Source of the DNA: Lentisphaerae bacterium WC36
GTDB taxonomy: Bacteria; Verrucomicrobiota; Lentisphaeria; Victivallales; SZUA-371
Direction: 5' to 3'
Assembly (NCBI GenBank): GCA_020683205.1
Contig: CP085689.1
Span: 1,798,001-1,862,000 of the forward strand
Length of the DNA stretch: 64,000 nt
Shown: positions 9,599 to 34,600 of the stretch, piece by piece
Layout: every line of letters starts with the position of its first letter
Position numbering within the stretch: position 1 is the first letter of the stretch
The notes under the pieces: model-generated
Database searches by the model: none
Told to the model about the DNA's origin: nothing
What the model saw: the letters and a program-made list of their open reading frames with translations, nothing else
Translations under genes and position numbers: made by a program

Positions 9599-12500
9599 TT
9601 ATTTTGCTTCTAGAGTAATTGTTGCTCCTTTTAAGCCTTCACTTTGTGCTGTTAGCTTAATTGCTCCTTTTACTCCTTTTTTACTTCTAATAATCACCAT
9701 CACTTTTCCGTTAAAAGCTTTACGCTTTTTAGAACTGAAAACTGTATGATTTGTTGCGTCACCGTTGCCTGTCGCAATAATTTCACCTGCGCCTTCTACT
9801 GAAAACTTAACTAAATTACTGCTGCGTGGCACAACGCCATTTTCAGCATTTAACACATCACAAGTTACAAATGATAAATCATAGCCATCAGCTTTAATAA
9901 CTTTTTGATCTGCCGTTAAATTAATTTTTACTGCTGGAGTCGAAGTTTTTACCGTGTCTGTTGCCCATTTTTTACCATTTTTATATGCGACAACTTTCAC
10001 TACGCCAGGAACATATTTTACATCATCCCATTTCAAACGATAATCATATTTGCCACGTTTTTTACGCCCTAAACTTTTACCATTAAGGAATAACTCAGCC
10101 TCATCCCCTGACGTATAAACATGAATCGGCGTAACTTTGCCAACACGTTCTGGCCATGTCCAATGTGGTAAAATATGTGCCATTGGTAAATTTGGTCTCC
10201 AACGAGCTTGATAGATATAGAAACGATCTTTTTTGAAGCCAACTAAGTCAACAATTCCAAAATAGCTGCTGCGTGATGGAACCTGTAATTTACCTAATTT
10301 TTTCATTTCTGCAGCCATTGCCGCTTTCTGTTTTGGATCTGTAAAATTTAGTAAATTTGTTGCATCATTATTATATGGAGTAGGTTCACCAATGTAGTCA
10401 AAACCCGTCCACACAAATTCACCCATGCAGTCACGGTGTTTATCTAATTCTTTAAATTCAGTGTCTGGAGTACAACCCCAACCTGGATGCGAAACATCAT
10501 AACTACTCATTTGAAAATTAGCTTTATTATTGCGTGTCACTGGGAAAAAATATTCACCACGACTAGAAATACATGATGAAGTTTCTGTTCCCATATACAT
10601 TTCATTTGGTTTCTTACAGTATTTATTAAATTTCCCATATTGCCAAATATTATAATTAAACCCAAATACATCAACAGCTTGAGCAAAACCTTTTTTATAG
10701 GCTTCTCCATAGTTGGAGCCAATTGTCGTAGGACGTGTAATATCAAATTTTTTCACCTGGTCAGAAATTTGACGACCTAATTTAGCCTTATCTCGTGACC
10801 ATAAACCTAAAATCTCATTACCAATACACCACATAAAAACTGATGGATGATTGCGCGCACGTTTAACTAATGCCTCAATATCACGTTTCCACCATTTATT
10901 AAAATCTTTACCATAATCAAGTTTACGTTTACCACGATCCCAACAATCAAACGTTTCTGCTTGAACTAAAACACCCATTTTGTCACATAATTCATAAAAT
11001 TCTGTTGCAGCTGGGTTATGTGATGTACGAATAGCATTCACACCCATTTCTTTAAGTATTTCGATTTGACGTTCAGCAGCGCGCACGTTAAATGCCGCTC
11101 CTAAAGGTCCTAAATCATGATGCTGACATACGCCATTAATTTCAACACGACGACCGTTTAATTTAAAACCATCTCGTTTTGTGAATTCTAAAATTCTAAA
11201 ACCAAATTTAGTATCTTTAACATCAACTAATTTACCATTTTTAAATACTTTAGTCGTTACAACATAACGATTTGGCGCAATAATATCCCATAATTTAGGA
11301 TTAACAACCTTTAAATTTGTTGTTAAAGTTGCCTGACCACTTTGAGCCGCAATTTTCATTGTTTTTGAACAACTTTCTGCAACTTTTCCCCCTTTAACAT
11401 CATTTTTATCAATTGGGTAAATTTCTGTTTTTACTTGAACTTTTGCCGCGCTGTCTGATTCATTATCAACAGTTGCTACAACTTTTACTTCACCACAATT
11501 TTTCGTAATTTTTGGTGTTAACACCTGTACTCCCCAGTGATCCAAATGTACTTTATCAGTCATTACAATCCACGTATTTCGGTAAATACCAGCACCTGGA
11601 TACCAACGTGAATCCCAATTAACAGTATCTAAACGAACCGCAATTTTATTAGTTTCGCCAAATTTGATAAATTTAGTCGCATCAATGCGGAACGCAGTGT
11701 AACCATATGCCCAACCACCAGCGTAATTTCCGTTGATGTAAACTTTGCTGTTTGACATTGCGCCATCAAAATCGATGAATACTTTTTTGTTCGCGTCACA
11801 TGCAGGAACTTTAAAATCTTTACGATACCAACCAATGCCTTTCCAAGGTAATTTTCCAGTATTTCCTGGTAAATCCTGTCTAAAAGGACCTTCAATACCC
11901 CAATCATGTGGAACGTTTAATTTACGCCAATTTGAATCATCAAATTTAATTTCAGAAGGGCTAATTTTACAAACAACTTTTTTCTCTTTTTTCTTTTCAG
12001 GTTTGATTAAGTTGCCATTTTTGTCAAAAAGTTCAATTTCGCGAACTGAAGCCCATCTACTTTTATTGGCATCTGTTAAAGTCAAACGTACAAAACGTGC
12101 AGCCTTGTTTAAGTCGAATTGAGGATCCTTAGCGTTTCCGCTGTTTGCCAGTGCCCAACTTTGACCATCATTTGAAACTTCTAATTTGTAAGCATAACTT
12201 TTGTCAGCAAATTCAAAAGCAATTTTCGCTTTGCTGATGTCCATTTTTTTGCCTAAATCAATTTTTACCCATTGATTATTTTTAGCACCATTAGCGCACC
12301 AGCGTGAATCTTTATCACCATCAACAGCGTACTCAGTTTTTTGACTCGCTTCAGTTGAAGAAGCCCACGTTTTGAAGAAATTGCTCTCTTTTCTAACTAC
12401 GCCAGGTTCATCAATGTAATCCCCTCCAGCGATTGGTGATGGACCAAAACGAGCAAACTTCCAATTTTCATTAAACGATTCTTTCGAACGAGCAGTCTTT

Positions 12501-12613
12501 TTAGAACAATCTTTAGTGTCCATGTCAATACAGGCACTAGCAATCATTCCAATTCCAGCAAGCATCCCTAATAAAGATGCCACTGCAACTTTTCCTTTTT
12601 TTCTTTTTGTCAT
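9599..12613 (-). CDS. Glycoside hydrolase family 2 (beta-galactosidase-like) with inserted discoidin domain
   Basis: Secreted or surface GH2 enzyme of 1004 residues, probably cleaving beta-galactosides or related beta-glycosides. The N-terminal hydrophobic stretch (..VASLLGMLAGIGMIASAC) may be an imperfect lipobox. I place the start at ATG 12613 because AAAGAGA precedes it; an upstream ATG at 12652 has no ribosome site. The GH2 jelly-roll begins at NENWKFARFG, is interrupted by an F5/8-type C domain (TEYAVDGDKDSRWCANG ... SVREIELFD), and resumes at NVPHDWGIEGPF. The TIM barrel carries the acid/base Glu in WCIGNEILG (about residue 600) and the nucleophile Glu in MGTETSS (about 677). C-terminal Ig-like and DUF4982-type domains follow. 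It lies downstream of di-heme protein 1, with 70 bases between the coding regions. Confidence 0.92.
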   Translation of the reverse strand: MTKRKKGKVAVASLLGMLAGIGMIASACIDMDTKDCSKKTARSKESFNENWKFARFGPSPIAGGDYIDEPGVVRKESNFFKTWASSTEASQKTEYAVDGDKDSRWCANGAKNNQWVKIDLGKKMDISKAKIAFEFADKSYAYKLEVSNDGQSWALANSGNAKDPQFDLNKAARFVRLTLTDANKSRWASVREIELFDKNGNLIKPEKKKEKKVVCKISPSEIKFDDSNWRKLNVPHDWGIEGPFRQDLPGNTGKLPWKGIGWYRKDFKVPACDANKKVFIDFDGAMSNSKVYINGNYAGGWAYGYTAFRIDATKFIKFGETNKIAVRLDTVNWDSRWYPGAGIYRNTWIVMTDKVHLDHWGVQVLTPKITKNCGEVKVVATVDNESDSAAKVQVKTEIYPIDKNDVKGGKVAESCSKTMKIAAQSGQATLTTNLKVVNPKLWDIIAPNRYVVTTKVFKNGKLVDVKDTKFGFRILEFTKRDGFKLNGRRVEINGVCQHHDLGPLGAAFNVRAAERQIEILKEMGVNAIRTSHNPAATEFYELCDKMGVLVQAETFDCWDRGKRKLDYGKDFNKWWKRDIEALVKRARNHPSVFMWCIGNEILGLWSRDKAKLGRQISDQVKKFDITRPTTIGSNYGEAYKKGFAQAVDVFGFNYNIWQYGKFNKYCKKPNEMYMGTETSSCISSRGEYFFPVTRNNKANFQMSSYDVSHPGWGCTPDTEFKELDKHRDCMGEFVWTGFDYIGEPTPYNNDATNLLNFTDPKQKAAMAAEMKKLGKLQVPSRSSYFGIVDLVGFKKDRFYIYQARWRPNLPMAHILPHWTWPERVGKVTPIHVYTSGDEAELFLNGKSLGRKKRGKYDYRLKWDDVKYVPGVVKVVAYKNGKKWATDTVKTSTPAVKINLTADQKVIKADGYDLSFVTCDVLNAENGVVPRSSNLVKFSVEGAGEIIATGNGDATNHTVFSSKKRKAFNGKVMVIIRSKKGVKGAIKLTAQSEGLKGATITLEAK

Positions 12614-12683
12614 AAAAAATCTCTTTGAAATAAATTTAACACTACTTTTCATAAATTAAAATTTGGTAAAATATTACCAAATA

Positions 12684-15600
12684 TTAAAAATCTTCAATAA
12701 TTAAACGAATACCGACATCAAAAACTTTTTGGTAACGTTTATAACCATAACGATAGCTACTTGTCGCATATTTTGGTCTCGTAATCCAACTACCCCCACG
12801 AATAACCAAATCAATTTGTATATCGCCGCCACTAATATTATTATTACGGCCATCGCCTGCGTCATATGGATAATCCCAGTAACGACTACGCGTCCACTCT
12901 GAAACATTTCCTATCATATCATATAAACCAAACGCATTTGCCGCATATGACTTTGATTTTGTTGATAATTGAGCATTATCATTTACACTTTTAATTCTTG
13001 GTAACCATGAACGATAATCTCCTAACTCAACTTTCTTTAATGGGTGACCATGGCGAACACCAAACCAACGTAAATTATAATCAGCTAAATTTGCAAACTT
13101 GCTGAAATCAGCTTTTTTAGAACCATAGAACATATCAGTTGTAGTACCACCACGCGCAGCCCATTCCCATTGAGCTTCCGTTGGAATTGTCACCTTTTTG
13201 CCAATTTTCCCACTCAACCATTTACAGAAATCCATAGCTTCATCAAAACTAACACGCACCACTGGCTGCTCTGGTTTATTTAACGGCCAACCACGATCTG
13301 TTTGATTATGACTCAAACGCGGATAATAGCGGCTATCATGCTCTTTATTAAATTTAGCGTACAATGCATTTGAAACTTCTGTTGTCGCCATCAAGAATGG
13401 TTTCTTAATCTCAACAATTGCACGTGGACGCTCTTGAACGGTTTCAGTTTTCGATCCCATCACAAATTTACCAGTCGGAATCTGCACAAAATCAATCTTT
13501 TCACCATCAATATTATATGTTACAACCTCAGGAGTTTTCACCGCAACGTCAGGAACGCTCAAATTATCAGTATATTTTGGTAATGCTTTAGGACGAATCG
13601 ATTCAACCTTCACATCTTTTTCCACATGGACGTTATATTTGCTAACATCACGATTTGCAAATAGTTTTGCATATTTATTACGCGCTTTAGTATATCTTGC
13701 CATCTGCTCATTCTGATGCTTAATAGACTTAGAACCAGCCCAACCACTATATGCATGACGATGCGCATCTTTCCAACTACCATTATATGGAACATTTAAA
13801 TCAATCCATGTGTATAAGCGCTCCCAAGCCTCTTTTGGCATTTGAACATTACGATGACCTTTTTTCAAAATTCGAATCAATTCACTTGTTGAAGCTACAT
13901 ACTCCATCGGATTATCAATATGGTTATCACTCTCAGGCCCAGGGCGACGCACATAGCGATGTAAGTTTAAGTACGCCTTTGGCAATTTAACATGATTAAA
14001 TTTCATCTCAGGAATTTCAACCAATTCTTGACTCTCAAAATCAGGAATGCGATTACTTCCAGCATCATGACATGAGATACAATATCTATTAATAACTTCA
14101 TTTTGAACTTCATTTTTGAAGCTAAATCCACGCGGCTTACCATACCAAGGCTTAATCGCTTTCGGCGGCTTTGTAGACGCAATTGCACGACGTACCTTTA
14201 CTGCATCATTTTGACTTTCGTGACAACCAATACAAGTTAAGTTTTCGCCAGGCATTCCTACCATCCAGCTCTTCATTAACTGAATTGCTTGACCATTTTC
14301 ATCAAGAGGTTGAACTGCGATTGGAGTATTAGCCGGTCCAACAAACATCACTGAACCATCTTTTTCAACCTCAACCGTCCCTAAAATACGCTTCACATCC
14401 CATGAACACTCCACGCCAACAGATTGAAATGATCCACCTTGCATATATGCAAAATCATATTCAAAAACACGCAATGCTTTAACTGTTCCTTTTGGAATAT
14501 GTGGCAAACCCTGCCCAGCATAGACATTTGCAACATAAAATACTGCCGTATTAGATCCTAAATCAACTTTACCTGGAATCACATCTGGAGTTTTCTTATT
14601 GTTTAAAAGAATTGGTTCAAAATATTTTTTACCTTCACTAATTGGAATAATATTATCAAAAACGTCAACCAAGTAGATACCCCAAGGAGACTTTGGCGAT
14701 AATTTTCCTGACACAATAAAATATTTTCCTGCGCCATCACTAGGGTTTGTGCCTAATGGCTGAGGGTTTAAGAATTTCGGCCAACGATTTGCATATAATG
14801 CATCAACAATCTCATTTTTAATTTTCTCATCACGTCCTGGTATAGGCTGAATAACCCCACTAATCTCACGACGACCTTTGCGAATATCAAATAACACCAA
14901 ACGACCAGGTCTTCCAGTATGATGCCCAGTCACAACCGTAATAAATTGACTATCATTTCCAGGAATCGGTTTTGAAAAATACATCGTATTTGGCCAATAC
15001 GAATTAGAACCATAGTACTCTTTTTGATCGGTTCCATCTGGATTCATGCTCATTAAAATACGAGTATAAAAGTGTGATTGGTCTGAATACTCCCAGCGAG
15101 TATACAAAACTCGCCCACTTTCTAACATTGTAGGATTTAAGCCACTATCTTGATCAAACGTTAATTGACGAATTTTTTTTGTCGCCATATTTAATTTATA
15201 CATATTTGCGATTGGCTTACGACCAAATTCACATGGTAGACCTTGAAACGGCGCTGTAGACATAAAAACGATGTCACCAGATGGCAAATAACAGCTATCA
15301 AATGAATCAATATCATCATATTCAGTAGGAGTTAACTGTTCTAATTTTTTATTTTTTAGATCATATTGGAAGACTTGCCAGCGATTATGAGTACCTGTTT
15401 TACTAAACATAATCTTATCATCAGAAAAATTTACATCTAAATCACTTATCGTTAAAGCTTGTTTTGGCTGATAAATTAGTTCTTCATTCAACTCACCACG
15501 CAAATTACTTAATCTAACGATTTCGGAAAAAATATTACGTTTAACATCAGTTTGAATATAAACAGACTTAGCAACTGCAGGGTCATCTTGTTTACGTTTA

Positions 15601-15842
15601 ATAACCAACATATTATCAAAGTCAAGAATTGGGTTTGCGAGCAACGCCTCTCTGATAATTGATTTATCGCCTGCTTGCAATTTTTTTAAATATTCACGAC
15701 CTTTTGGATATTTTCCAGGGTTATGCTTTAAAATATCTTTTACTGCCATAATTGCCGAGTCAAGCTCTTTATCAGCAGCAAAAGTATTCAAAACGCCAAC
15801 AAAACTAACACTAATTAATAGTGTTTTACAAATTTTATTCAT
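12684..15842 (-). CDS. Di-heme protein 1: hydrazine-synthase-alpha-like propeller, two CxxCH motifs, FGE-like C-terminus
   Basis: Exported protein of 1052 residues; a signal peptide (..LLISVSFVGVLNTFAA) follows the ATG at 15842, which has AGGA upstream, while an earlier ATG at 15896 lacks one. The first part is a TolB/WD40-like propeller with SGDIVFMSTAP, RILMSMNPDGTDQ and VVTGHHTG, the pattern of the hydrazine synthase alpha middle domain. Two c-type heme motifs follow, CIGCH (near residue 536) and CISCH (near 587). From about 785 to the end is a SUMF1/formylglycine-generating-enzyme-like domain (GKFVMGS, PTEAQWEWAARGG, GLYDMIGNVSEW, RGGSW). The active-site Cys pair of real FGE is missing, as the region reads YATSSYRYGY. 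Similar proteins are frequent in Lentisphaerota and Planctomycetota without known function. A periplasmic redox or sugar-related role is inference. Confidence 0.85.
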   Translation of the reverse strand: MNKICKTLLISVSFVGVLNTFAADKELDSAIMAVKDILKHNPGKYPKGREYLKKLQAGDKSIIREALLANPILDFDNMLVIKRKQDDPAVAKSVYIQTDVKRNIFSEIVRLSNLRGELNEELIYQPKQALTISDLDVNFSDDKIMFSKTGTHNRWQVFQYDLKNKKLEQLTPTEYDDIDSFDSCYLPSGDIVFMSTAPFQGLPCEFGRKPIANMYKLNMATKKIRQLTFDQDSGLNPTMLESGRVLYTRWEYSDQSHFYTRILMSMNPDGTDQKEYYGSNSYWPNTMYFSKPIPGNDSQFITVVTGHHTGRPGRLVLFDIRKGRREISGVIQPIPGRDEKIKNEIVDALYANRWPKFLNPQPLGTNPSDGAGKYFIVSGKLSPKSPWGIYLVDVFDNIIPISEGKKYFEPILLNNKKTPDVIPGKVDLGSNTAVFYVANVYAGQGLPHIPKGTVKALRVFEYDFAYMQGGSFQSVGVECSWDVKRILGTVEVEKDGSVMFVGPANTPIAVQPLDENGQAIQLMKSWMVGMPGENLTCIGCHESQNDAVKVRRAIASTKPPKAIKPWYGKPRGFSFKNEVQNEVINRYCISCHDAGSNRIPDFESQELVEIPEMKFNHVKLPKAYLNLHRYVRRPGPESDNHIDNPMEYVASTSELIRILKKGHRNVQMPKEAWERLYTWIDLNVPYNGSWKDAHRHAYSGWAGSKSIKHQNEQMARYTKARNKYAKLFANRDVSKYNVHVEKDVKVESIRPKALPKYTDNLSVPDVAVKTPEVVTYNIDGEKIDFVQIPTGKFVMGSKTETVQERPRAIVEIKKPFLMATTEVSNALYAKFNKEHDSRYYPRLSHNQTDRGWPLNKPEQPVVRVSFDEAMDFCKWLSGKIGKKVTIPTEAQWEWAARGGTTTDMFYGSKKADFSKFANLADYNLRWFGVRHGHPLKKVELGDYRSWLPRIKSVNDNAQLSTKSKSYAANAFGLYDMIGNVSEWTRSRYWDYPYDAGDGRNNNISGGDIQIDLVIRGGSWITRPKYATSSYRYGYKRYQKVFDVGIRLIIEDF

Positions 15843-16472
15843 ATTAACTTTTCCTTTATTTTGCTTAAAATGTCTACATTTGATATAGTCATTCAATAAA
15901 TAAATTAATAAAAAAATACTTTATTTCAATAGCAAGTCTTTTTTATTTTAATATTTTCATTTTTTGAAAATTAGTAAATACTAAATATAACATGATTTAA
16001 GCTTAAAAAAAGTTTTATTTTAATAATAATTATATTTTGAAATACCTTTACTATACTTTACCTAGCATTGTATAAGAAGCAATAATAAAACTAACTTAAT
16101 TACAAAAAATGTTTTAATTACAAATTAAATAAAAATAAATAAATTACTTATTTATGACAACTTAATACTGATACTCATTTACAGAAAAATCCAAACTTTA
16201 AATATTACTATTGAGAAATGAAACTTAGCTAAAACAAACACGAGATAATCATTAAAATTTTTCACTTTTTCTATTAACTATCCTTAATCGTAAGAAAAAC
16301 AACAATTTTTGATAATTAAACGTATGGTCTATAATTTAAAATTAAATGCAATAAATTTCATCATTGAAAAATCACTAATTGATCAAAGTTAAGTTGAAAC
16401 GACAATGAATTCATGCTAGGTTCTTTAATGTCTTTAGCACATAGGTTATTATTAAAAATAAAGGACTTTCAA
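15843..16472. other. AT-rich divergent intergenic region
   Basis: About 630 bases between di-heme protein 1 and the aldo-keto reductase. It should hold the two divergent promoters, but I could not pick out reliable -10/-35 boxes against the AT background. No RNA gene or conserved ORF seen. Confidence 0.5.
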
Positions 16473-17642: not shown

Positions 17643-18989
17643 CTAAAATTTACGGTATGGAGCATCTAACAGTTTATTTGCTTTTTCTTCTTTAAATTTC
17701 GCTTCCTTTGCGTTCCAGTGCAAAGTTTCACCAGGGAAACGTCCTGCAATTGTACCAAGAAGAATTACTTCTGTTAGTTTTGCAGAGTATGAGAATGGTG
17801 CAGAAGTGCCACCTTTACCTAAACAAGCATCAATAAATTCATGATAATGACCTCTATTTTTCATGAAATCTTTCTCGCCTTGAGCAATATTATATTTCTT
17901 CTCAATTGCCTTAATTTCTTTAGACATATCTTTGTATTTACCATTAACAATTAGTTTAGGAACTCCGATATGTGGAAGTAATAAACGTCCTTTTTCGCCA
18001 ATAAACATTACGCCCTGCTCTGGAAGTTTTTCTCCATTAGGTAACATTAAATCATCAGCTAAAGTTGGAGCTCCAGGACCATCATACCAAATCCATTTAA
18101 AATCATCAGTAGTATGTTTTGTTTGTGGAAATTCGTATATAACAGTATTATTTAATGGGAAACCAACTCCATTAGGTTGACGACAAATAGTTTTAACTGT
18201 TTTTGGTACGTCTAACTGCAACGCATTGTATGGAGTATCAAAGATATGCACGCCCATATCACCTAAAGTACCACAACCAAAATCAAGAAGTTTTCTCCAA
18301 TTACCTGGATGGTAATAACCCTTTTTGTAAGGTCTTGCTTTAGCCGTACCTAGCCATAAATTCCAATCTAAAGTTTCAGGAATTTCATCAGCACCCTCAG
18401 GAATTTTGCCATCATATCCCCAATTTTTTGGCGACCAAGCTTTTACATATTTTGATCTACCAATAATACCAGATTGAATTAAGTAAGTAGCTAGCTTATA
18501 CTCATAAAATGAGTGAACTTGAATCCCCATTTGCGTTGGCAATCCTTTTTCTTTGGCTAACCTTGCCATAGTTCTTGATTCTGAAATATGATGAGTAAGT
18601 GGTTTTTCACAATAGACAGGCTTATCCATTTCCATTGCCATAATTGATACTGGAGCATGAGTATGATCTGGAGTTGCAACAACTACAGCGTCAATTTCTT
18701 TTTCCAATTCTTTAAGCATAACGCGATAATCTTTATAAATTTTCGCATTAGGATAAGCTTTTTTAGCAGAAGCTAAATTTTTAGAGTCGACATCACAAAG
18801 AGCAACAACATCAACTTGAGGATGCGATGCAATTGCATCAAGGTCAGCTCTACCCATACCACCTACTCCAACATGAGCAGTTCGAACACGTCCATTAGGA
18901 CATTCTGGCAAACTGCTTTTTTTGATACATGCTGTTAGCGAAAGTACCGCCACAAGCAACATCATAGTAATTTGAATAAATTTTTTCAT
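17643..18989 (-). CDS. Gfo/Idh/MocA family oxidoreductase, exported lipoprotein
   Basis: NAD(P)-dependent sugar dehydrogenase-like protein of 448 residues. The N-terminus is a lipoprotein signal with the lipobox LTAC, so the enzyme is exported, as seen for many PVC and Bacteroidota members. The Rossmann motif is GVGGMGRADL near residues 40-50, followed by CDVDSKNL and the family motif YCEKPLTH. The C-terminal alpha/beta domain contains DFGCGTLGDMGVHIFD, a typical active-site region. It is the third gene of a minus-strand operon after DUF1080 x3 and a second Gfo/Idh/MocA protein, 43 bases after the latter. In studied 3-keto-glycoside pathways such enzymes oxidise or reduce the C3 hydroxyl of glycosides, giving the substrate for DUF1080 hydrolases. 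Confidence 0.9.
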   Translation of the reverse strand: MKKFIQITMMLLVAVLSLTACIKKSSLPECPNGRVRTAHVGVGGMGRADLDAIASHPQVDVVALCDVDSKNLASAKKAYPNAKIYKDYRVMLKELEKEIDAVVVATPDHTHAPVSIMAMEMDKPVYCEKPLTHHISESRTMARLAKEKGLPTQMGIQVHSFYEYKLATYLIQSGIIGRSKYVKAWSPKNWGYDGKIPEGADEIPETLDWNLWLGTAKARPYKKGYYHPGNWRKLLDFGCGTLGDMGVHIFDTPYNALQLDVPKTVKTICRQPNGVGFPLNNTVIYEFPQTKHTTDDFKWIWYDGPGAPTLADDLMLPNGEKLPEQGVMFIGEKGRLLLPHIGVPKLIVNGKYKDMSKEIKAIEKKYNIAQGEKDFMKNRGHYHEFIDACLGKGGTSAPFSYSAKLTEVILLGTIAGRFPGETLHWNAKEAKFKEEKANKLLDAPYRKF

Positions 18990-19032
18990 AATAATTCCTT
19001 TTTTTTAATTAATATTTTTAAATAACTATTTT

Positions 19033-20289
19033 TTATACAACAAGTTCTACAGTGCCATTTTTTCGTGCTTCTTCAGCCTTAAAGACAGCAAGGTGAGTTT
19101 CTAAACTCACGTCTGGCCCTGAAATAATCATCGTTTGATCGTTTGCCAAATTTGCTTCAATAAAGTTTTTAACAACACCACGATCTCCGCCGTCATGATG
19201 GTCTAATAATGAATCATTATTTAATCCAACATTTATCGTTTTAGTTTGTTCATTAATAAAGTCAAAAATTTCAATTTTATTCTCTTCAACAGTAATTTGT
19301 GCCTTAGTTCCATAAATTATCGACTTGCGCCCAGAATTTGCGGAAAAAGCTGTCATCATAAAACTTGCAGAAGAATGATTTTGAAATTCAATATTTACCA
19401 ATTGATTATCAACAACATCATTATCACATGCATAAACACAGCGTCCATATGGACCCGTTCTTAATGCTTCCTCAATATTTACTCTATTCGGTTCAGCAAC
19501 AACCGTATCAAGAGGTCGCCCTAATTGACCATTTTCTAGGAATCTATTATAGATTCTTTTTGCCGAATAAGGGCAATTTTTTTCAATATGCTTAGGGCAA
19601 TCTAAACAACGTTCAGGAGCTCCTTGTGGTTGTTCAGTTTTTTTAAAATGACGCAATGAAGCAAAGGATGACACCCGTGCTATTTTTTGATCCATAATAT
19701 ACTGAATCCAATCTAAATCATGACATGACTTTGATAGAAGCATAAAAGTTGAATCCGATTCTTTACGCCAATTTCCTCGAACATAAGAGTGAACATGACG
19801 CCAAGAACCTACAGGTTCAACGTGCTGAATATTAACAATGTCTCCAGCCACTCCAGAATTAATAATTTCTTTGAGCTTCTGAGAATAATTTGTATAGCGT
19901 AAAACATGGCAAACTGAAAAAATTATGCCATTTTGCTTCACAGCATCAACAATTCTACGACAATCATCTTCAGTTGTAGCCATTGGTTTCTCAAGTAAAA
20001 TGTTATACTTCAAATTGGCAAACGCAATTGCTGGTGCTGCATGCATATCGTCGTGAGTACAAATCACAACTGCATCTGCAATTTTTTCACCAACAGCTAC
20101 AACTTCACTCCAACAGTTAAAAACCATCTCTTTAGGAAGATCAAAATCTTTAATCATCTTTTGACGACGATGATCATCTGGGCCAGCAACTCCAACAATT
20201 CTACATTTCAGAGGAGCCTCCTTAGCATACTGAGCGTATGCTTCTCCACGACTACCTGGTCCAACTATAATTACTTCTACTGCTTTCAT
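19033..20289 (-). CDS. Gfo/Idh/MocA family oxidoreductase, cytosolic
   Basis: NAD(P)-dependent oxidoreductase of 418 residues without a signal peptide, so probably the cytosolic counterpart of its exported neighbour. The Rossmann segment VEVIIVGPGSRGEAYAQY is at the start and ILLEKPMATTEDD gives the conserved EKP. A Cys cluster of the form C-LD-C-P-(x7)-C-P-Y-S lies near residue 240; this cluster is seen in one branch of the family and could bind metal. It starts 21 bases after the DUF1080 stop, with AAAAGG before its ATG. Likely job: interconverting 3-keto and hydroxyl sugars inside the cell; inferred from context. Confidence 0.88.
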   Translation of the reverse strand: MKAVEVIIVGPGSRGEAYAQYAKEAPLKCRIVGVAGPDDHRRQKMIKDFDLPKEMVFNCWSEVVAVGEKIADAVVICTHDDMHAAPAIAFANLKYNILLEKPMATTEDDCRRIVDAVKQNGIIFSVCHVLRYTNYSQKLKEIINSGVAGDIVNIQHVEPVGSWRHVHSYVRGNWRKESDSTFMLLSKSCHDLDWIQYIMDQKIARVSSFASLRHFKKTEQPQGAPERCLDCPKHIEKNCPYSAKRIYNRFLENGQLGRPLDTVVAEPNRVNIEEALRTGPYGRCVYACDNDVVDNQLVNIEFQNHSSASFMMTAFSANSGRKSIIYGTKAQITVEENKIEIFDFINEQTKTINVGLNNDSLLDHHDGGDRGVVKNFIEANLANDQTMIISGPDVSLETHLAVFKAEEARKNGTVELVV

Positions 20290-20310
20290 AACCTTTTCCC
20301 ATATAGTTTC

Positions 20311-22215
20311 TTAAAGTTCTTGAATTACAATATTTCTCCATTGAACTTTAATACCGCCCCCATCATGAATTTGTAATGCAATACGACCAACAGCTGCACC
20401 AATTTTAGCATCTTCGATATCAGCCATTTGTACCCCATTCAACCATGTTGTAATTCTATTGCCTACTACTTTGATTCGCATTTTATTCCATTCACCAACT
20501 TTAAGAGCTGATTCTTTATCATTAGGAATTTTAGCTAACCAACCACGACCATAAGATTCATAAATACCTCCTGTATCACGATTTTTCGGTGCAACTTCTA
20601 CTTGCCATCCTGAAACTCTTGTCCCTTTTACTTTTGAGCGGATAAATACTCCACTATTACCATTTGAAAGCTGTTTAAACTCTAAATTTAAATCAAAGTT
20701 TTTATAATATCTTTCAGTTCCTAAGTAACCATATTTTTTCTTCGGTCCACTTTCACACACCAATAAACCGTCTTTAACATACCATTTTTCTTCACCAAAA
20801 TTTTTCCATCCTGTTAAATCTTTACCATTAAACAACGATACTGGTGCTGATTTTTTCTTAGGTAATTCTTTTACTTTAATATCTTTAAACCAAATTTTTG
20901 CGCCATGATCTTGTAAACAAATATGCCCAATTGGAGAAAGTCCATATTCTGGTTTATCACTCCATTTACCACTATTTCTTCTTTCAAACCAATCTTTATT
21001 CCAAGTTGTAAATTCTAAAAGTTTTTTACCATTCAACCAATGCTCAACATGACCATTATCAAAAACAATTTTTGAATTATTCCATTCACCTGGAGGGTTT
21101 AATTTTTTCTTTGAATCGTCAGCTAAATGCATTGCATAATTTCCACCTGCTTGACACCAAGGTTGTAATTCACCAACATTTTCTTTCACACCCATGCTTT
21201 TATTGTAAGCAATTAAACCATTTCGATTCATAGCTGCAAAATTTTTATCATCAATAATTTGATATTCAGGTCCTGTTAGATATGGAGCATCACCAAACAT
21301 TTTATCTTCAACAACGTGATACATAATTCCACTATTTGCACCTTTACCAATTTTCCAATCAACTGAGAATACAAAATTTTCATATTGTTTTTTAGTAATG
21401 ATATCTCCACCTAAATCACCACCTTTTCCTAATGCGACCAAGCAGTCATCTTCAATAACCCAACCTTCTACGTTGCCACCATTGTACATTTTCCAGTTAT
21501 CAAGACTTTTACCATCAAATAAGCTTTTCCATGGAATATTACTATATTTTTCAAGCTCTTGAGTTTCTGGTAATTCTTTAATTTTTATATTTTTAAACCA
21601 TAATTTTGAACCATGACCAAGAAATGCAATATGCCCTTTTTTATTTCCTAGACCTGGATGATTTTTACGGTCTACAGTTCTACCATTTTTGACGTATAAA
21701 CTAATATCACCATCAACAATTGTTACACCATTAAGAATAACTTTTATATTGTTTCCATTAGCAATCACTTCTTGAGTGTTCCATTCTCCAACAGGTTTTA
21801 AATAGCCGCGAAGTGCTGGAATAACTCCATAAACTGAACCGTGATATTGATAACACTGTAGCTTATTATATTTTGTTGCAGTATTATCTAAAATTTGTAA
21901 TTCCATTCCTACATAATCAGCATCTCCAGACATTGGCGTTCTGATTCCCAAGCCATTATTTGCGCCGGCTGTCAATTTAAAATCAAACTTCATATGAAAA
22001 TTGCTATACTCTTTTTTAGTATAAAGATTACCACCGCTGCCCTGCCCAGGTTTTACAGCAATAACACCCTCTTCAACAACATATGCATTTTTATTACCCG
22101 TCCATTTATCAAGATTTTTTCCATCAAATAAAGACTGCCAATTTGAACATTCTTTAGCAAAAGTCAAATTTGGACCTAACATCATAAGAGCTAAAAGTAG
22201 AGATTTTTTAAACAT
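20311..22215 (-). CDS. Three-domain DUF1080 protein (3-keto-disaccharide hydrolase family), secreted
   Basis: Secreted protein of 634 residues with an N-terminal signal peptide (..LLLALMMLGPNLTFAK). It contains three DUF1080 (concanavalin-like) domains, each opening with a version of SLFDGK-L--W and ending with WFKNIKIKELP-like text: about 25-215, 228-452 and 457-634. DUF1080 proteins hydrolyse 3-keto-glucosides and other 3-keto-glycosides, and their jelly-roll also suits carbohydrate binding. Three copies in one chain is unusual, as one is the common number. It is the first gene of an operon with two Gfo/Idh/MocA oxidoreductases and is divergent from the kinase-sigma pair. AGGGA precedes the ATG. 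Confidence 0.9.
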   Translation of the reverse strand: MFKKSLLLALMMLGPNLTFAKECSNWQSLFDGKNLDKWTGNKNAYVVEEGVIAVKPGQGSGGNLYTKKEYSNFHMKFDFKLTAGANNGLGIRTPMSGDADYVGMELQILDNTATKYNKLQCYQYHGSVYGVIPALRGYLKPVGEWNTQEVIANGNNIKVILNGVTIVDGDISLYVKNGRTVDRKNHPGLGNKKGHIAFLGHGSKLWFKNIKIKELPETQELEKYSNIPWKSLFDGKSLDNWKMYNGGNVEGWVIEDDCLVALGKGGDLGGDIITKKQYENFVFSVDWKIGKGANSGIMYHVVEDKMFGDAPYLTGPEYQIIDDKNFAAMNRNGLIAYNKSMGVKENVGELQPWCQAGGNYAMHLADDSKKKLNPPGEWNNSKIVFDNGHVEHWLNGKKLLEFTTWNKDWFERRNSGKWSDKPEYGLSPIGHICLQDHGAKIWFKDIKVKELPKKKSAPVSLFNGKDLTGWKNFGEEKWYVKDGLLVCESGPKKKYGYLGTERYYKNFDLNLEFKQLSNGNSGVFIRSKVKGTRVSGWQVEVAPKNRDTGGIYESYGRGWLAKIPNDKESALKVGEWNKMRIKVVGNRITTWLNGVQMADIEDAKIGAAVGRIALQIHDGGGIKVQWRNIVIQEL

Positions 22216-22449
22216 ATTTTTATTTCCCTGTTTTAATTATTTTCAATATTTATAGCTTAATTTTTTTTTAACCAAAATATTTTATGGTCGACTCTATAAC
22301 GAGGGGAAAATTAAAACTTCACAGTAAAAATGCAAAAATATCAAATTTTTTTGAAATTTAAAAATAACTGTTGTAAAATCAACTTTATTGACTTATCCTA
22401 TTATGATGGAATAACTGAAGGATATTTCTAAAAAAGGGAAAAAGAAGAA

Positions 22450-24633
22450 ATGGTTACGAAGTTTAATTTACAAGAGAAGCAGTTTGTTGATTCTCGCCAA
22501 CAAATGGAATATTTATATACTCAGGCTTTTGAAAGTGTTTGCACTTCTGACTCTGAGTCAGCTATCCTAGAAGAGATTCGCAATGATAGTGAACGTTATA
22601 CTATTATTAAAACTATTGCTGAAGGCGGCGCGAAATTTATACACTTGGTTGAAGATATTGTAACTGGGCGTACTCTCGCAATGGCTGTACGAAAAGAAAA
22701 ATCTTCAGATGAAGAAAGTGAAGGTTTTTTACGTGAAGCAAGAATAACCTCGGTGCTTCAACATCCAAATATTTTACCTGTTTACGACATGGGTATTAAT
22801 GAACAACAGCAACCATTTTTCACAATGAAGTATATTGAGGGAGAAAACCTCCGCCAATTATTAGAAAATGATAAAATTTCATTAAGTGATAAAATTGATA
22901 TTTTTTATAAAGTTTGCGATGCGGTTGCTTATGCACACAGTTGTGGTGTTTTGCACCTTGATTTAAAACCTGAAAATATTCAAATCAGCAGTTACGGAGA
23001 AGTTTTGGTCTGCGATTGGGGATTAGCAGAAATCCTTGATTCACACTGCAATGACCCACACATTGAACGCTACTCTTTCGATAAAATTGAACAAAAACAA
23101 AATTTACACTGTTCAATTAAAGGCACACCTGGTTATATGGCTCCAGAACAAGTACTTCAAGGGCGACGTAAAGACCAGCGAACCGATATTTTTACACTTG
23201 GGGCAATTTTGTATGAAATTATTACCAGTAAACCTGCTATAAATGGTGGTATAGAAGAATGTTTAAACCAAACGGAATCTAATCCAACAATTTGTTTTGG
23301 TGACACGGCACCACAAGAAAGTTTATTAGCAATTGCCTACAAATGTATGCAACTAGATCCTGAAATGCGTTATCAATGTGTGGACGAAGTTATTATAGAC
23401 TTGAAAGCATATCGAGAAGGCTTTGTCACTTCTGCAGAGGAGGCTCCCCTTTGGCGCCATCTCCAGCTTTTTTACAAAAGACATCAAACAACAGTACAGT
23501 TAACAGGCATATTCTGCTTAATAGTGATAATTGCAACCATTTTTTCATTTATTTCAATACATAAAAGTGAACAAGCTGCAATTGCGGCGCATGACGCACT
23601 ACTCTTAGAACAAAGAGAACGAGCTAGGCTTGGACGAGAGGCTGCGCCACGAATATTTAAACAAGCTGAGCAATTTTTCTCTCAAGGAAATTTCATCAAA
23701 GCTAAAGAGCGAGCTGAAACAGCATTAATGTTAGATGATAAAAGTGCCAAAGTACGTACATTATTAGGGATACTTCTTTTTATGGAAAGAAAGTATGAGC
23801 GTGCAAATAATCTTTTAAAATCTGCAAATACGCCACTAGAAAAAAGCGTTCGCGATTTAAACAACCTTTATTGTCAAAAAAAATATACTCCAGACCAAGA
23901 AAGGACGTCTATTAATAACTTACTTTTGTACTGTAGTAGACTAATGCCGACTCCATTAACAATTGCACTCTGTTTTAATTGGATCAACAGTGAAAATAAA
24001 GCTTTTCAAAATAAAGCTATGTGGTCGTTAAAAGTGTCAAAAGAACTTAGTATGAGAGTTCTAAATTCTGTGGCTAAATGTAATAATGAAAATATTAAAA
24101 ATTATATCCTATCTCAAGTGCTTCACCAATTAGAACAAGACCCAGAGTGGTTACAACGACGAATTCCAGCAACCTTAGGAATGCAATTAAGCACTAATGA
24201 CCAAATAAAAAAAAGATTTAAAGCGTTGATACCTGCAAACTTAGCACTTGGACAACATGTTTTTTCTAATGGCGGCGACGAACGTTATGCGTCTTATGCT
24301 GTTGATGGCGAAACTAAAGGCGAATTCTGGGCGGGAAACCCATTTCCGGCTCATATCACGGTTGACTTAAATAGAGAAACCATTGTGAAAAAATTTAAAG
24401 TTTATTTTTACTATGGACCAGAAAAAGAGCGCTATTATCAATATTTAATTCAAACTTCTGTAGACGGCATAATTTACCAGACAGTTGTTGACCAATCATC
24501 AAACAAAAAATATAGTAGTCCAGTACCATTTGAACATAATCTGCCACCAATTTCAGCACGTTATGTTCGTTTAGTGGTGACGCATAATAGCGCGAATGAA
24601 GCGGTTCATGTCAATGAGTTAGAGGTTTTTTAA
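22450..24633 (+). CDS. Membrane Ser/Thr protein kinase with TPR and C-terminal discoidin domain
   Basis: Transmembrane kinase of 727 residues. The kinase domain (about 50-325) has HLDLKPEN as catalytic loop (near 169), CDWGLA in place of DFG (near 187), GTPGYMAPEQ and TDIFTLGAILYE. The Gly-rich loop is IAEGGAKFI. The beta-3 segment reads TLAMAVRKEK, so Ala sits where the VAIK lysine is expected and nearby Arg/Lys may substitute. One membrane segment (about 348-370) is followed by a helical, TPR-like part (about 395-460). The end (597-727) is an F5/8-type C domain (SYAVDGETKGEFWAG ... ARYVRLVVTH), which usually binds glycans. Kinase inside and sugar-binding domain outside suggest a receptor. 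Its stop codon overlaps the sigma-factor start (TAATG). Confidence 0.88.
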   Translation: MVTKFNLQEKQFVDSRQQMEYLYTQAFESVCTSDSESAILEEIRNDSERYTIIKTIAEGGAKFIHLVEDIVTGRTLAMAVRKEKSSDEESEGFLREARITSVLQHPNILPVYDMGINEQQQPFFTMKYIEGENLRQLLENDKISLSDKIDIFYKVCDAVAYAHSCGVLHLDLKPENIQISSYGEVLVCDWGLAEILDSHCNDPHIERYSFDKIEQKQNLHCSIKGTPGYMAPEQVLQGRRKDQRTDIFTLGAILYEIITSKPAINGGIEECLNQTESNPTICFGDTAPQESLLAIAYKCMQLDPEMRYQCVDEVIIDLKAYREGFVTSAEEAPLWRHLQLFYKRHQTTVQLTGIFCLIVIIATIFSFISIHKSEQAAIAAHDALLLEQRERARLGREAAPRIFKQAEQFFSQGNFIKAKERAETALMLDDKSAKVRTLLGILLFMERKYERANNLLKSANTPLEKSVRDLNNLYCQKKYTPDQERTSINNLLLYCSRLMPTPLTIALCFNWINSENKAFQNKAMWSLKVSKELSMRVLNSVAKCNNENIKNYILSQVLHQLEQDPEWLQRRIPATLGMQLSTNDQIKKRFKALIPANLALGQHVFSNGGDERYASYAVDGETKGEFWAGNPFPAHITVDLNRETIVKKFKVYFYYGPEKERYYQYLIQTSVDGIIYQTVVDQSSNKKYSSPVPFEHNLPPISARYVRLVVTHNSANEAVHVNELEVF

Positions 24634-25223
24634 TGTCAGAATTATATACAAGAGTTACACTATTAAACAAAGTACGTTCAACAAACTCAGAAACTGCGTG
24701 GGTTGAATATGTTTCATATTATAAAGGTTATATTTATGCTTTATTAAAAGGTATGGATGTACCAAATCACGATCGTGATGACTTACTGCAAGTTATATTG
24801 TTAAAGTGTTGGAAATATTTACCAGAATTTGAATATAATCCAAACCGTTGCAAATTCCGCTCATGGTTGACAATTATGGTGCGTAATACGGTGCGAGATC
24901 ATTTCAAGGCTAAATCATATCGAAGCAAACAGTTAGAAACTGATATTGAGCCATTAGCAAACTCTTTGGAATCAGATGACAATATCGAAGTTTATGCTGA
25001 AAAAGAGTGGCGCATATATGTGGCGGAATTAGCGTGGGAAACTGTTAGCAAGGAGTTTAAAGACACTGTAATTGAAGCATTTGTGCGTCGCGCAAACGGT
25101 GAAAAACTTGCTGATATTGCACAAAAGTTAAATATTGCGCAGAGTTCAGTTTCAACCTATGAAACACGTGTTAGAAGAGCAATAGCTAAAGAAATTGTCC
25201 GCTTAGAAAGCTTCCTCGCATAA
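24633..25223 (+). CDS. ECF-type RNA polymerase sigma factor
   Basis: Sigma-70-family protein of 196 residues with only regions 2 and 4. Region 2 covers DRDDLLQVILLKCWKYLPEF...FRSWLTIMVRNTVRDHFK (about 48-95). Region 4 is the C-terminal helix-turn-helix LADIAQKLNIAQSSVSTYETR (about 150-175). The ATG overlaps the kinase stop codon by one base, which points to translational coupling. No anti-sigma gene is present. ECF factors paired with Ser/Thr kinases are common in Planctomycetota and Lentisphaerota, where phosphorylation rather than an anti-sigma factor is thought to control activity. The divergent DUF1080 operon is a natural candidate target. Confidence 0.92.
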   Translation: MSELYTRVTLLNKVRSTNSETAWVEYVSYYKGYIYALLKGMDVPNHDRDDLLQVILLKCWKYLPEFEYNPNRCKFRSWLTIMVRNTVRDHFKAKSYRSKQLETDIEPLANSLESDDNIEVYAEKEWRIYVAELAWETVSKEFKDTVIEAFVRRANGEKLADIAQKLNIAQSSVSTYETRVRRAIAKEIVRLESFLA

Positions 25224-28247: not shown

Positions 28248-30557
28248 ATGAGTTATAGTGAAAATGATTTCATTACAAATAGTTTTATTATGTTACAAAT
28301 AATTGAAAATATTTTCAAAAATGTTATTCTAAACATCATTCCAGCTAATTTAAATTTAGATGAATGTGATACTTCATATAACATGGCAAATATTCAAGAC
28401 CTTGAACGCTTACAACTATTTATTCAAAAATATTTTCATATTGCAAGTTGCCCATTAATATTCAATAGAACATCCACACCTCATGCTCCTGATAGTGACG
28501 AGGAAATGCCTAGCTATTCCACTATAACTGAAGTAAGTCGTATTCATTCTGATACTCCAACAATAGATATTGTTGATTTTTCAGCAGCTAATTATAGTTT
28601 TTTTATAAAAAAAGTTAAAGAGAATCCTCGCCATTATAACGAAAGACTTTCAGAAATAGATCATTTTTCCGAAAGCCAATTCTTTAAACAGCTATGCCTT
28701 TTTAGATTTTTTTATAAATACTTTTTCAAACAAACTTTAATGCCCCTTGGAACCGATAAATTATATTTTGCTCTTAAACAAGAATTTTGTGAATTTCATG
28801 CTGATGATTGCGAAGGAATAGCTGAAGCTATTTTAACAGTTTCACAAAATTACGGAGCAAAGCAAATTAAACCTGATAAACTACTTTTAAATTTACGAAG
28901 TACAGCATTAGAAGTTGACAAACTTAGAACTGAACGAGAATTAATGTGCGAAAATCAAGTGAGAGCGCTTCAATACATTCATGAAAGGAAATCGGAGCTT
29001 AGGGAAGCAAAAAAATCTTTTTCTATACAAAAAGCTGCAGCATTCCATTTTTTAAATGCAATTGCTAATGTATATGCACGGGGTTTTTTAGTAGCAGCAC
29101 AAAATCCTCGCTGGGGAAGATACCTTAATGACGTTAAAGAAGAAAATAGAAGAATCAACAAGCATGAATCATTAATGTTTTATTCAGTTTTCCCCCCAAA
29201 ATATTTTAGTTATCCAGAATTTAAAAATAACTATAAATCTTTAAAAGACACTTTTAAAAATAATAAATTTTTAAACATTATAACCTATATTTTATACAAT
29301 TGCTACAAACAGCGAATTAGCCTAGAGGGAGGTCCTTTTAATGGTCATTTATGGCACTGGTGGTATGGTTACCAATATGTAGAAATGGCAAAATTAATTT
29401 TGGATATATTAAATAGTGATAGTGGAAGGTATGTTTTAATGCTTAAATCAAATTTGCCTTATGAGTTTAAATGGAGCAACTTTCATAAATTTCACACCTC
29501 TGAAATGTATAAATTCAATCCCAAATTCACTGCTTTTAATTTTGATTACAATGATAACTTCCGCTGTGCGTATTCTGTTATACAAATTTGCCAGGTAAAT
29601 CTGAGCAAAGCAGAAACAACTTATCAGGATATTTTAAAACTTGATAGTGACATAGCAATAGCAGAAGAAAAATTTAACGCTATAATTTTTGCAGTTTGCG
29701 AAAAAATTAGTTACGCTCATAGAAAACAACACCGTGAAGTAGCTCGTCGTTTAAGCCTAAAAAAATCGTCTTCACAAGCCACCAATACAGACATTGATCA
29801 AAAAGATATTGAAACTGAAAGTATAGGAGATGAATTCTATGAATCTGCGAGCGAAGCGTCCCTGCCCGACACAGTTAGTAGTTTTAATATTTTACGCTCA
29901 GCAAGCGAAGAATCTCTAAACAATCCCAAATTTTCTGTAAAGCGAGCTTCAGGAGCAGACGTACGTTCTTTTCAAAAAATTCGTGCTTTTTCTAGCCAAA
30001 AAAGAGAGCATGGAACAACCGAACAAAAGTCTTTTCAAATTGTTGATTTTTTAACAGGTGATGAAAATAGTGATTTCAAATTATGTTTAGATTTTATCAT
30101 GCAGCATAGTAGTGATTATATTGATTTGATTACTATTAGGAACCAACTTTATAAAACGTATTTGGCAAGAGAAATTCATATGTCAATGCACGTGACTTGG
30201 ACAGGAACAAGACAACGCAAATGTACCGAATATTGGTCACATATAGAGCGAATAATTCAAATTTTATCATTAACAAACATGATGAGCAGAGGAATGAAAT
30301 TATCCAATATTTCTAGAATTTGTGATCATCATTTTTTCTTAATACAAAATCGTTGCGCCTTAATTATTCTCAAAAAAAATCAAAAAAGAATATGTGGAAT
30401 GGCAAAAAGGTTCTTTACTCATTTGAGAGCCAAAGAATACTGTTTAGCTTTAGAAGATTTGCGTATTAAATGGGTTCGATATGTACAACTTTACGAGTTA
30501 CCAGAAATGGATACCGAAAGCATTATCGCAAATAATCCTGAATATTTTCAATCATAA
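28248..30557 (+). CDS. Large orphan protein of unknown function
   Basis: Intact 769-residue protein with no signal peptide, membrane segment or family signature that I recognise. The first 500 residues look mostly helical and rich in aromatic residues and Lys, with an aromatic cluster GHLWHWWYGYQY near 377 and a predicted coiled region near 225-260. Residues about 497-566 are a Ser/Glu-rich, disordered-looking linker (ESASEASLPD..., RSASEESL) with several basic-x-x-Ser sites. A second helical domain follows (about 585-769) with ICDHHFFLIQ and repeated Cys/His. AGAGG seven bases before the ATG supports the start. It stands alone among decayed accessory genes. The mix of helical domains and a phospho-site-like linker recalls secreted effectors, but no secretion signal is visible. 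Confidence 0.7.
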   Translation: MSYSENDFITNSFIMLQIIENIFKNVILNIIPANLNLDECDTSYNMANIQDLERLQLFIQKYFHIASCPLIFNRTSTPHAPDSDEEMPSYSTITEVSRIHSDTPTIDIVDFSAANYSFFIKKVKENPRHYNERLSEIDHFSESQFFKQLCLFRFFYKYFFKQTLMPLGTDKLYFALKQEFCEFHADDCEGIAEAILTVSQNYGAKQIKPDKLLLNLRSTALEVDKLRTERELMCENQVRALQYIHERKSELREAKKSFSIQKAAAFHFLNAIANVYARGFLVAAQNPRWGRYLNDVKEENRRINKHESLMFYSVFPPKYFSYPEFKNNYKSLKDTFKNNKFLNIITYILYNCYKQRISLEGGPFNGHLWHWWYGYQYVEMAKLILDILNSDSGRYVLMLKSNLPYEFKWSNFHKFHTSEMYKFNPKFTAFNFDYNDNFRCAYSVIQICQVNLSKAETTYQDILKLDSDIAIAEEKFNAIIFAVCEKISYAHRKQHREVARRLSLKKSSSQATNTDIDQKDIETESIGDEFYESASEASLPDTVSSFNILRSASEESLNNPKFSVKRASGADVRSFQKIRAFSSQKREHGTTEQKSFQIVDFLTGDENSDFKLCLDFIMQHSSDYIDLITIRNQLYKTYLAREIHMSMHVTWTGTRQRKCTEYWSHIERIIQILSLTNMMSRGMKLSNISRICDHHFFLIQNRCALIILKKNQKRICGMAKRFFTHLRAKEYCLALEDLRIKWVRYVQLYELPEMDTESIIANNPEYFQS

Positions 30558-31661: not shown

Positions 31662-34600
31662 TTATTTTGCCTCCATCACAATACGGAAACCAACGTTGAA
31701 AACTCCTTGATATGTTGGATAACTTAAACGATAACTACTAGTTGCATATTTTGGTCGATCACGCCATGAACCACCACGCACAACTTTTTCTTTAGTTAAA
31801 TCAAATGAATTTACTTTTTCTCCTTCATACGGATAACGCACATAATCACTACTTGTCCACTCTGCTACATTACCAATCATATCATAAAGTCCCCAAGCAT
31901 TTGGAAGATAATGCCCAACTCCTGATACAATCATTTCACCATCATTAAAACGTTTATCACGTGGAATAAAATCATAAATTGGATTATTGCGTTGATTACT
32001 TCTGAATGTAGGATTCACACCATTGACTGCAAAACGTTCAATACTAATATCAGCTAAGTTTGCATATTTACTAAAATTAGCATTTAAATCACCATAGAAT
32101 GTCGCTTTATCGCTACCTGCGCGCGCAGACCATTCCCATTGAGATTCTGTTGGCAATGAAACTTTGATTCCAAATTTTGTACTTAAAACTTCACAAAATT
32201 CATTTGCTTGTTTCCAAGTTAAACGCACAGCTGGCTGTTCATCACTATTTGCCTCATAACCACGACGGGTATGATCTTTCCACTGTTGGTCATAAACCAT
32301 AGAATCATGCTCTGGGAACACTGTTCGAAATTGTCCATTAGTGATTTCAGTGGCCGAAATCCAAAATGGTTTTTCGATAACAACTTTATTTGTTGGCGCT
32401 TCCCACTTCGTTTCATTCAATGATCCCATTACAAATTCACCAGCAGGAATTAACATCATAGTAATCTTTAAACCATTGCCTAAGTCAACAACTTTACTAA
32501 TTTCTTTTCCAGCTTGTTTTTGCAATATTTTAGCTTGTTCAGTAGTCAACGGCCAATTCTTTGCAGAAACTTTACTGTAATTTTTACATTCTTTAATACG
32601 AGGGTTAACTTTTTTCAATGGATATGGTTTTGAAGCAACATTTTCCCAATCTTGAGCTACAATTGAATATTTTTTACGTAAGTCACGAGCCTGATCAGCG
32701 ATTTTTTTAGTATAGCCATCTTTTTTATAATTGTAGATGTTTGTCCAGCTTCCACCATAAGGAACATTTAAATCAATCCATGTATAAATACGATTCCATG
32801 CCTCCTCATCTAAATTAACACCATAATGCCCTTTTTTTAATATCTGCACCATTTCACTTGTCGATGCATGATATTCATACGGCATAAACATATGACCATC
32901 ACTTTCTGGTCCAGGTCGACGGAAATATGGACTAAAGTCATAATATGCACGGCTAAAACGCTCTTGTGCTCCACGTTTTCCTTTCACAATTTTACTATCT
33001 TTGAAATTTGGACGACCCTTTTTACTACCATCATGACAATCTACACAATATGCATCTAAAACTGGTTGAATTTCATTATTAAATGAATATCCTTCAATTT
33101 TATTATTTCCATGATGTAATTGAATTTCTTGAGGTCGTTTATTTGCTGCAATAGTTCTACGTACCAATGGCGGTTCGTTAGGAGATTCATGACATCCAAC
33201 ACATGATAAATTTTCTCCTGGCATTGCTACCAACCAACTTCTAAACAACTGAATAGCACGGCCTTCACTGTCAAGAGGTTGAATTGAAATGGTCGTATTA
33301 GCTGGCACTTTAAATGACGCAGAACCATCTTTTTCTACATTAACTTCACCAATTACACGTTTAACAGTCCAGCTACTCTCAACCCCTAAATGATAATGAC
33401 TTCCTTGACGGAAATAACCATAAACATAAGTAAAGAGACGTAATTTTTTGACTGTTCCACGAGCAACATTTCTCAAACCTGGACCACGATAAATATCTTG
33501 AATATTAATGGTGGCTACCTTAGATGATAAATCAACTTTATCTGGAATTACAGGTGGACGTTGACGTTTTTTAAATGGGATTGGTTCTAAAAATGCATAA
33601 TTTTGATCAATTTTAATTGGTACAATATTATCAAATTTATCGACTAAATAGAGGTTCCATTCATCACCTTTAGCCAAGCGCGCAACAGCAAAATAATAAC
33701 TATCACTAATTGGGTATGATTGAGTAAATTTAGGCCATTGATGTTCAACTAATCTATCAATATCTAAGGCAAAACTCGGATAATAATCACGCAAATGTGG
33801 ATAAACTTCAACATAAAATTTATTAATTTTATCTTGATAGTATTTCTGTTGCTTAAATCTACGACCATATTTAGCAATTAATTTTTTAATATTTTCTTTA
33901 AGGTCAGGATATTTTTTCACTAATTTTGGATTAACAGTTGGGTAAACATCCGTAACGCCAACGTGTTCAACTTCAATTCCATAACCTGGCACTCGTTGCA
34001 ACGCTCCATCAGCTTCAATTGATCCTTTATTCGCATCAAAAATAGTTAACTCCCCTGCTCTACGTGAAGAATTATTCCAGCTACCGTGATGTCCTGTAAC
34101 TACGGTTAAAAATTGTCCCGGCTTGCCTGGAATTGGGCGCGCATAAAACATACTATTTGGATATAAACTTTGAGATCCGTAAATTGAACGTTGGTTTGTT
34201 CCATCTGGATTCATCGTCATTAAAATACGTGAATAATAGTGCATTAAATCAACATATTCCCAACGTAAATACATAACTTTTCCATCTTCTAATACCACTG
34301 GATGCCAATCAGCATCTTGTTCGTATGTTAACTGACGGATATTTTCGCCATTAGCATTCATCTTATATAAATTCGGAACACTATGGTTTCCACTGATACA
34401 GGGAACTCCAAACATTGGAGCCGTAGAGCTGAAAATTATTTCACCACTAGGTAAATAAATAGCATTATAATTATGAACATTTTTACCATGGATATTTTTA
34501 GTCACTTCACGTAAATTTTTACCATCCATTCCAACTTCCATGACCTGAACACTACTATCTTTTTCGCTTATTGAAGTAAATAATATTTTATCCGCATCAT

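Follow-up and report, generated by a model that had tools for sequence, protein, structure and literature searches.

Kinases that lack the lysine of strand beta-3 are routinely filed as pseudokinases. The WNK kinases, which control blood pressure in animals, are devoid of this residue; instead, a lysine of strand beta-2 occupies the third-glycine position in their glycine-rich loop, and the glutamate of helix alpha-C is kept. WNK1 is active with the lysine supplied from beta-2 (PMC4718504, PMC10211241). In POMK/SgK196, the missing beta-3 lysine is likewise supplied from beta-2 (PMC10211241). POMK differs from the bacterial kinases described below in that it also lacks the HRD and DFG motifs and phosphorylates a sugar. 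In bacteria, a survey of the PVC superphylum applied a “K-D-D” test (PMC11032199). A family with a relocated lysine would fail this test, and a working family could therefore be hidden from the usual searches for active kinases. Bacterial pseudokinase families were reviewed in 2025 (PMC12599244); WNK appears in that review solely as an analogy, and no bacterial family with the swap is listed. We found no report of a bacterial lysine-swap kinase in the open literature, although an earlier description in subscription papers is possible.

Kinase genes are also found beside genes for ECF sigma factors. In the ECF43 pairs, such as PknT-EcfP of Vibrio parahaemolyticus and PknS-EcfK of Xanthomonas citri, a Hanks-type kinase gene lies next to the sigma gene and no anti-sigma factor is involved. 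Phosphorylation of the ECF factor by the kinase has been proven in ECF43 (PMC13147305). The ECF43 sigma factors have mostly lost the acidic DxxD residues of region 2.2, where a phosphothreonine is needed, and phosphorylation in the linker has been shown for EcfK (PMC8999054, PMC13147305). No lysine swap is described for the ECF43 kinases. ECF59, ECF61, ECF62, and ECF217 (planctomycetal) come from phyla related to the one studied here; by description, they are also encoded beside Ser/Thr kinases and keep a DAED-like motif (PMC8999054). In kinase-linked groups other than ECF43 the mechanism may differ, as the same review notes (PMC8999054).

Here, we describe a kinase and an ECF sigma factor encoded side by side in Lentisphaerae bacterium WC36. 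The window, i.e., the whole stretch of DNA analysed, covers 64,000 nucleotides (positions 1798001-1862000 of a 3.66 Mb genome). With a probability of about 0.6, the two proteins form a cognate, one-to-one signalling pair in which an active, WNK-type membrane kinase phosphorylates its sigma factor. The pair is best read as an instance of regulation by a kinase and an ECF factor, a kind already known, with a new active-site variant. Its interest lies in the active site and in the conserved pairing rather than in the glycan-sensing role first proposed for the locus.

Organization of the locus

The features are listed below with their positions in the window.

22450-24633, + strand: transmembrane Ser/Thr kinase of 727 aa, member of a WNK-like lysine clade of 87 (Pfam Pkinase, residues 51-309, 6.5e-36)
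22579-23439, + strand: kinase domain, residues 44-330, with motifs HLDLKPEN and DWG (alignments with relatives; AlphaFold2)
22633-22635, + strand: Lys62, at the third-glycine position of the glycine-rich loop (EGGAKF) and the start of strand beta-2 (invariant in alignments, 87/87; spacing as in WNK1)
22684-22686, + strand: Ala79 in place of the beta-3 VAIK lysine (strand beta-3 in the model)
22735-22737, + strand: Glu96, the retained glutamate of helix alpha-C (87/87)
23503-23559, + strand: transmembrane segment, residues ~352-370, about 19 hydrophobic residues (hydropathy 2.57)
23677-23826, + strand: TPR-like stretch on the putative extracytoplasmic side, residues 410-459 (TPR_19 0.002, below the Pfam cut-off)
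24286-24618, + strand: F5/8 type C (discoidin, CBM32-like) domain, residues 613-723 (Pfam PF00754 1.4e-15)
24633-25223, + strand: ECF sigma factor, cognate partner of the kinase (Sigma70_r2 1.2e-10; NCBIfam sigma70-ECF 4.9e-18; adjacency and co-divergence)
24771-24791, + strand: sigma region 2.2, DRDDLLQ, acidic residues retained (D/E in 94, 87, and 100% of 47 paired sigma factors)
22216-22449, no strand: divergent intergenic region of 234 bases (two-block motif search against shuffles)
20311-22215, - strand: exported protein of 634 aa with three DUF1080 (3-keto-disaccharide hydrolase) domains (PF06439 2e-132, three stretches)
19033-20289, - strand: Gfo/Idh/MocA oxidoreductase (PF01408 5.9e-17)
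17643-18989, - strand: Gfo/Idh/MocA oxidoreductase with a lipoprotein-like signal (PF01408 1.1e-20)

Chance is not an issue for these gene features, and they are as the initial annotation had them: a kinase with a discoidin domain, a sigma gene coupled to it, and, diverging across 234 bases, a DUF1080x3/Gfo/Gfo operon. The kinase and sigma genes overlap by one base; their junction reads TAATG, with an AGAGG about 8 nt upstream. The gaps within the operon measure 21 and 43 bases, and the last gene is followed by a terminator-like hairpin of 9 pairs. No anti-sigma (FecR-like) gene was found in the flanks of the pair; the next open reading frame of at least 90 aa, without a Pfam match, begins at a distance of 1 kb. 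Hence, the locus departs from the FecIR type, as had been claimed, but its route of control is not a new one, since ECF43 and five further ECF groups adjoin Ser/Thr kinases (PMC8999054, PMC13147305).

A lysine swap in the kinase active site

In alignments with relatives, the window kinase has EGGAKF in the loop, against GGMG in canonical kinases, and LAMAV in strand beta-3, against VALKV. The loop lysine, the beta-3 alanine, the alpha-C glutamate, and the catalytic and metal-binding aspartates are invariant in an alignment of 24 relatives. The family was then scanned in one genome per species, using the pattern HLD..KP.N and a helix motif; the swap positions formed no part of these patterns, which do favour HLD. 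The scan gave 80 named loci, and 129 distinct kinase domains were compared. The loop lysine occurs without the beta-3 lysine in 87 domains (86 with Ala and 1 with Gly at beta-3), the beta-3 lysine without the loop lysine in 42, and both or neither in none of the 129. The 87 lysine-swap kinases form one clade (SH-aLRT 99), which persists when the three swap columns are removed from the alignment (SH-aLRT 96). Among the domains compared, the swap is coordinated and falls in this single clade.

The distance from the loop lysine to the lost one is 17 residues, equal to that in WNK1 (the sequence was confirmed against solved WNK1). In the AlphaFold2 model of the window kinase domain (pLDDT 89.7), the lysine lies at the start of beta-2, the alanine in beta-3, and the glutamate in alpha-C. 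Lys62 would replace the missing beta-3 lysine and pair with Glu96, and the kinase would be active. There are also differences from the eukaryotic WNK kinases. The window kinase is a predicted transmembrane protein, with Ala and not Cys at beta-3, HLD and not HRD, and DWG and not DLG. In a tree built without WNK sequences, its clade is nested among bacterial DWG kinases. As the HRD arginine is replaced by Leu, the usual control through the activation loop is probably absent. Among solved structures, that of M. tuberculosis PknB comes closest, with a Z of 31.9, an rmsd of 1.9 over 256 residues, and 31% identity; PknB also dominates the 50 structural matches listed, among which there are no WNK chains, a result with no bearing either way. 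In NCBIfam, the kinase domain matches chlamydial PknD best, yet the 175 bits of this match are far under the cut-off of 839 for that family. Matches obtained with PADLOC were generic kinase matches, and a role as an anti-phage kinase was rejected.

Loss of the beta-3 lysine could also mean that catalysis is lost, the protein acting as a pseudokinase anti-sigma factor that binds the sigma factor directly, holds it at the membrane, and frees it when a ligand binds to the outer domain. This would fit the lack of the lysine from 87/87 domains and of a separate anti-sigma gene, and a sigma factor with an intact region 2.2 could act once released. However, the alpha-C glutamate, the catalytic aspartate and asparagine, and the DxG aspartate are retained in 87/87 lysine-swap kinases, with HLD and DWG each in 86/87; decay would not keep these residues. 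Moreover, the lysine that has appeared occupies exactly the same position as the one that rescues WNK kinases. We thus consider the pseudokinase explanation unlikely and retain an active kinase.

As far as could be checked in the open literature, no such active-site variant has been described in bacteria before. We lean slightly towards a wider proposal, in which bacterial kinases independently reached the WNK solution and serve, fully active, in dedicated ECF sigma switches of Lentisphaerota, Kiritimatiellota, and Verrucomicrobiota. With the beta-3 pocket emptied, these kinases may be able to sense an ion or a small ligand, as WNK1 does with chloride. If active, the clade is a bacterial parallel to the WNK kinases, in which the relocation of a catalytic lysine could be studied as a natural experiment.

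Pairing of the kinase with an ECF sigma factor

A sigma factor of the same family is encoded within 300 bp of 46 of the 87 lysine-swap kinases. Among the named genomes, such a sigma gene lies next door for 43/56 kinases of the swap clade vs. 1/20 canonical kinases, and that one case is weak. The position of the sigma gene varies: 28 of the 46 lie upstream and 6 downstream on the strand of the kinase gene (the latter being the arrangement of the window pair), 11 lie downstream on the opposite strand, and 1 is placed otherwise. In the genome studied here, both sigma factors of the paired family adjoin a lysine-swap kinase. The second pair (G000:C1:776683-780549; loci L007 and L076) has the sigma gene first and lies beside genes for an AraC-like regulator and a further HZS-like protein.

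Kinase and sigma distances are correlated (Mantel r 0.84, reached in 0/2000 permutations). Because species relatedness may contribute to such a value, shuffling was also limited to paralogues of one genome, which removes it; r was then 0.65 vs. 0.47 +/- 0.05 in the shuffles, and was reached in 1/5000. These data are strong evidence for cognate kinase-sigma pairing, and the co-divergence inside genomes points to direct contact between the two proteins. The kinase-sigma switch without anti-sigma factor put forward in the initial annotation is therefore supported.

An active kinase might nonetheless have another protein as its main target, the adjacency of the sigma gene reflecting co-regulation and not direct phosphorylation. 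The sigma factor shows no conspicuous Ser/Thr whose conservation is specific to these kinases, and a sister clade within the same kinases lacks sigma genes as neighbours; both would agree with such a target. Within-genome co-divergence argues the other way, and we hold this explanation to be improbable, even more so than the pseudokinase one. Swap-clade kinases without a sigma gene (L134, L146, L148, L151, and L159) seem, from tallies of the loci taken together, to lie directly after genes with ClpP and ClpX domains in several Lentisphaeria.

The cognate-pair reading thus remains the preferred one, and the sigma factor itself bears on how it might work. The 47 paired sigma factors share an N-terminal TRxTLL motif and the acidic residues of region 2.2. 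TRxTLL was ruled out as a kinase-specific phosphosite, since it is also found in relatives encoded beside canonical kinases or beside none. The acidic residues (DRDDLLQ in the window sigma factor) set the family apart from ECF43. A phosphothreonine of the ECF43 type would not be needed here, and another site or mechanism would be required, which weighs against the preferred reading. By analogy with EcfK, phosphorylation of the linker is possible.

The signalling route would be as follows. The kinase domain is predicted to be cytoplasmic and connected by one transmembrane helix to TPR-like helices on the extracytoplasmic side, ending here in the discoidin domain. Binding outside would change the state of the kinase, which would then phosphorylate the cognate ECF factor and so switch its regulon. 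If the kinase is active, this is a new type of kinase-sigma switch. A genome has one or several of them, each having an outer domain of its own and a regulon open to test.

The outer region and the neighbouring operon

In all 47 paired kinases, one transmembrane segment follows the kinase domain. The outer region mostly spans 250-400 residues, with weak LRR or TPR matches (Pfam) in a few. The F5/8 type C domain is found in the window kinase only and is absent from the other 46 of the 47. Its nearest relative in the same genome is the domain of a GH89 alpha-N-acetylglucosaminidase (NAGLU; 42.6% over 115 aa), which makes a sugar ligand plausible. Among 137 genomes of the order, the same architecture was not found elsewhere, the tail matching only discoidin domains, including those of glycosidases. 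For the outer half, the AlphaFold2 model is good up to residue ~470 of the protein but of no use for the discoidin part, for which the alignment holds no relatives.

The initial annotation took the pair for the sensor of the divergent 3-keto-glycoside operon. Naming the pathway in this way is reasonable, as BT2157, a 3-ketotrehalose hydrolase, and a putative 3'-ketolactose hydrolase both belong to the DUF1080 proteins (PMC9007349). The best NCBIfam match of the 17643-18989 Gfo/Idh/MocA protein is the BT_2158 glycoside 3-dehydrogenase, but its 318 bits are below the cut-off of 750. A pair that senses a glycan and turns on this operon is compatible with the cognate-pair explanation, as it concerns only the target. 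Besides the divergent position, the relationship of the discoidin domain to that of GH89 and the sugar-related genes beside some other pairs speak in its favour.

Comparison with relatives does not bear out this role. The divergent arrangement is not conserved: a search of 59 further genomes of the order gave a single weak match to the DUF1080x3 protein (42%, with two stops). No shared ECF promoter motif emerges from the 234-base region, where the best two-block match was 11 of 12 and shuffles mostly reached 12; a generic sigma-70 promoter scan gave 40 matches vs. 36 expected. The discoidin domain is unique to one paired kinase, and the genes beside other pairs are varied (sulfatase, GH95, GH2, cytochromes, coaE/rho, and many others). 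The opposite extreme, pairs that are never near sugar operons, does not hold either. A sulfatase gene is present in the flanks of 15/46 pairs, and a few pairs have GH95, GH2, or DUF1080. Of 143 near neighbours of pairs, 9 are sulfatases, 5 are of GH95 type, and 3 are GH2, vs. 3 sulfatases in 96 near neighbours of unpaired or canonical kinases. However, sulfatases are very common in these bacteria and make up 4.6% of the genes in one Pontiella (PMC10880615), so that 9/143 is near background and the excess modest. Control of the adjacent DUF1080/Gfo operon by the pair is accordingly doubtful, and the wider glycan-sensing version is no less tentative. In Pontiella-type genomes (L107, L116, L119, and L120), one copy of the pair lies in a conserved setting of HAD hydrolase, multihaem cytochrome, and coaE/rho-like genes, without sugar genes.

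Other features of the window

A protein of 769 aa without Pfam match is encoded at 28248-30557. Three large proteins that resemble one another (12684-15896, 31662-35258, and 53833-57105) contain CxxCH haem motifs, and the first of them matches the middle domain of hydrazine synthase alpha and FGE-sulfatase. Finally, a GH2 enzyme with a discoidin domain (9599-12652) was duplicated recently: two further, near-identical copies (100% and 99.8% over ~2.1 kb) lie near 40,900 and 1,067,400 of G000:C1.
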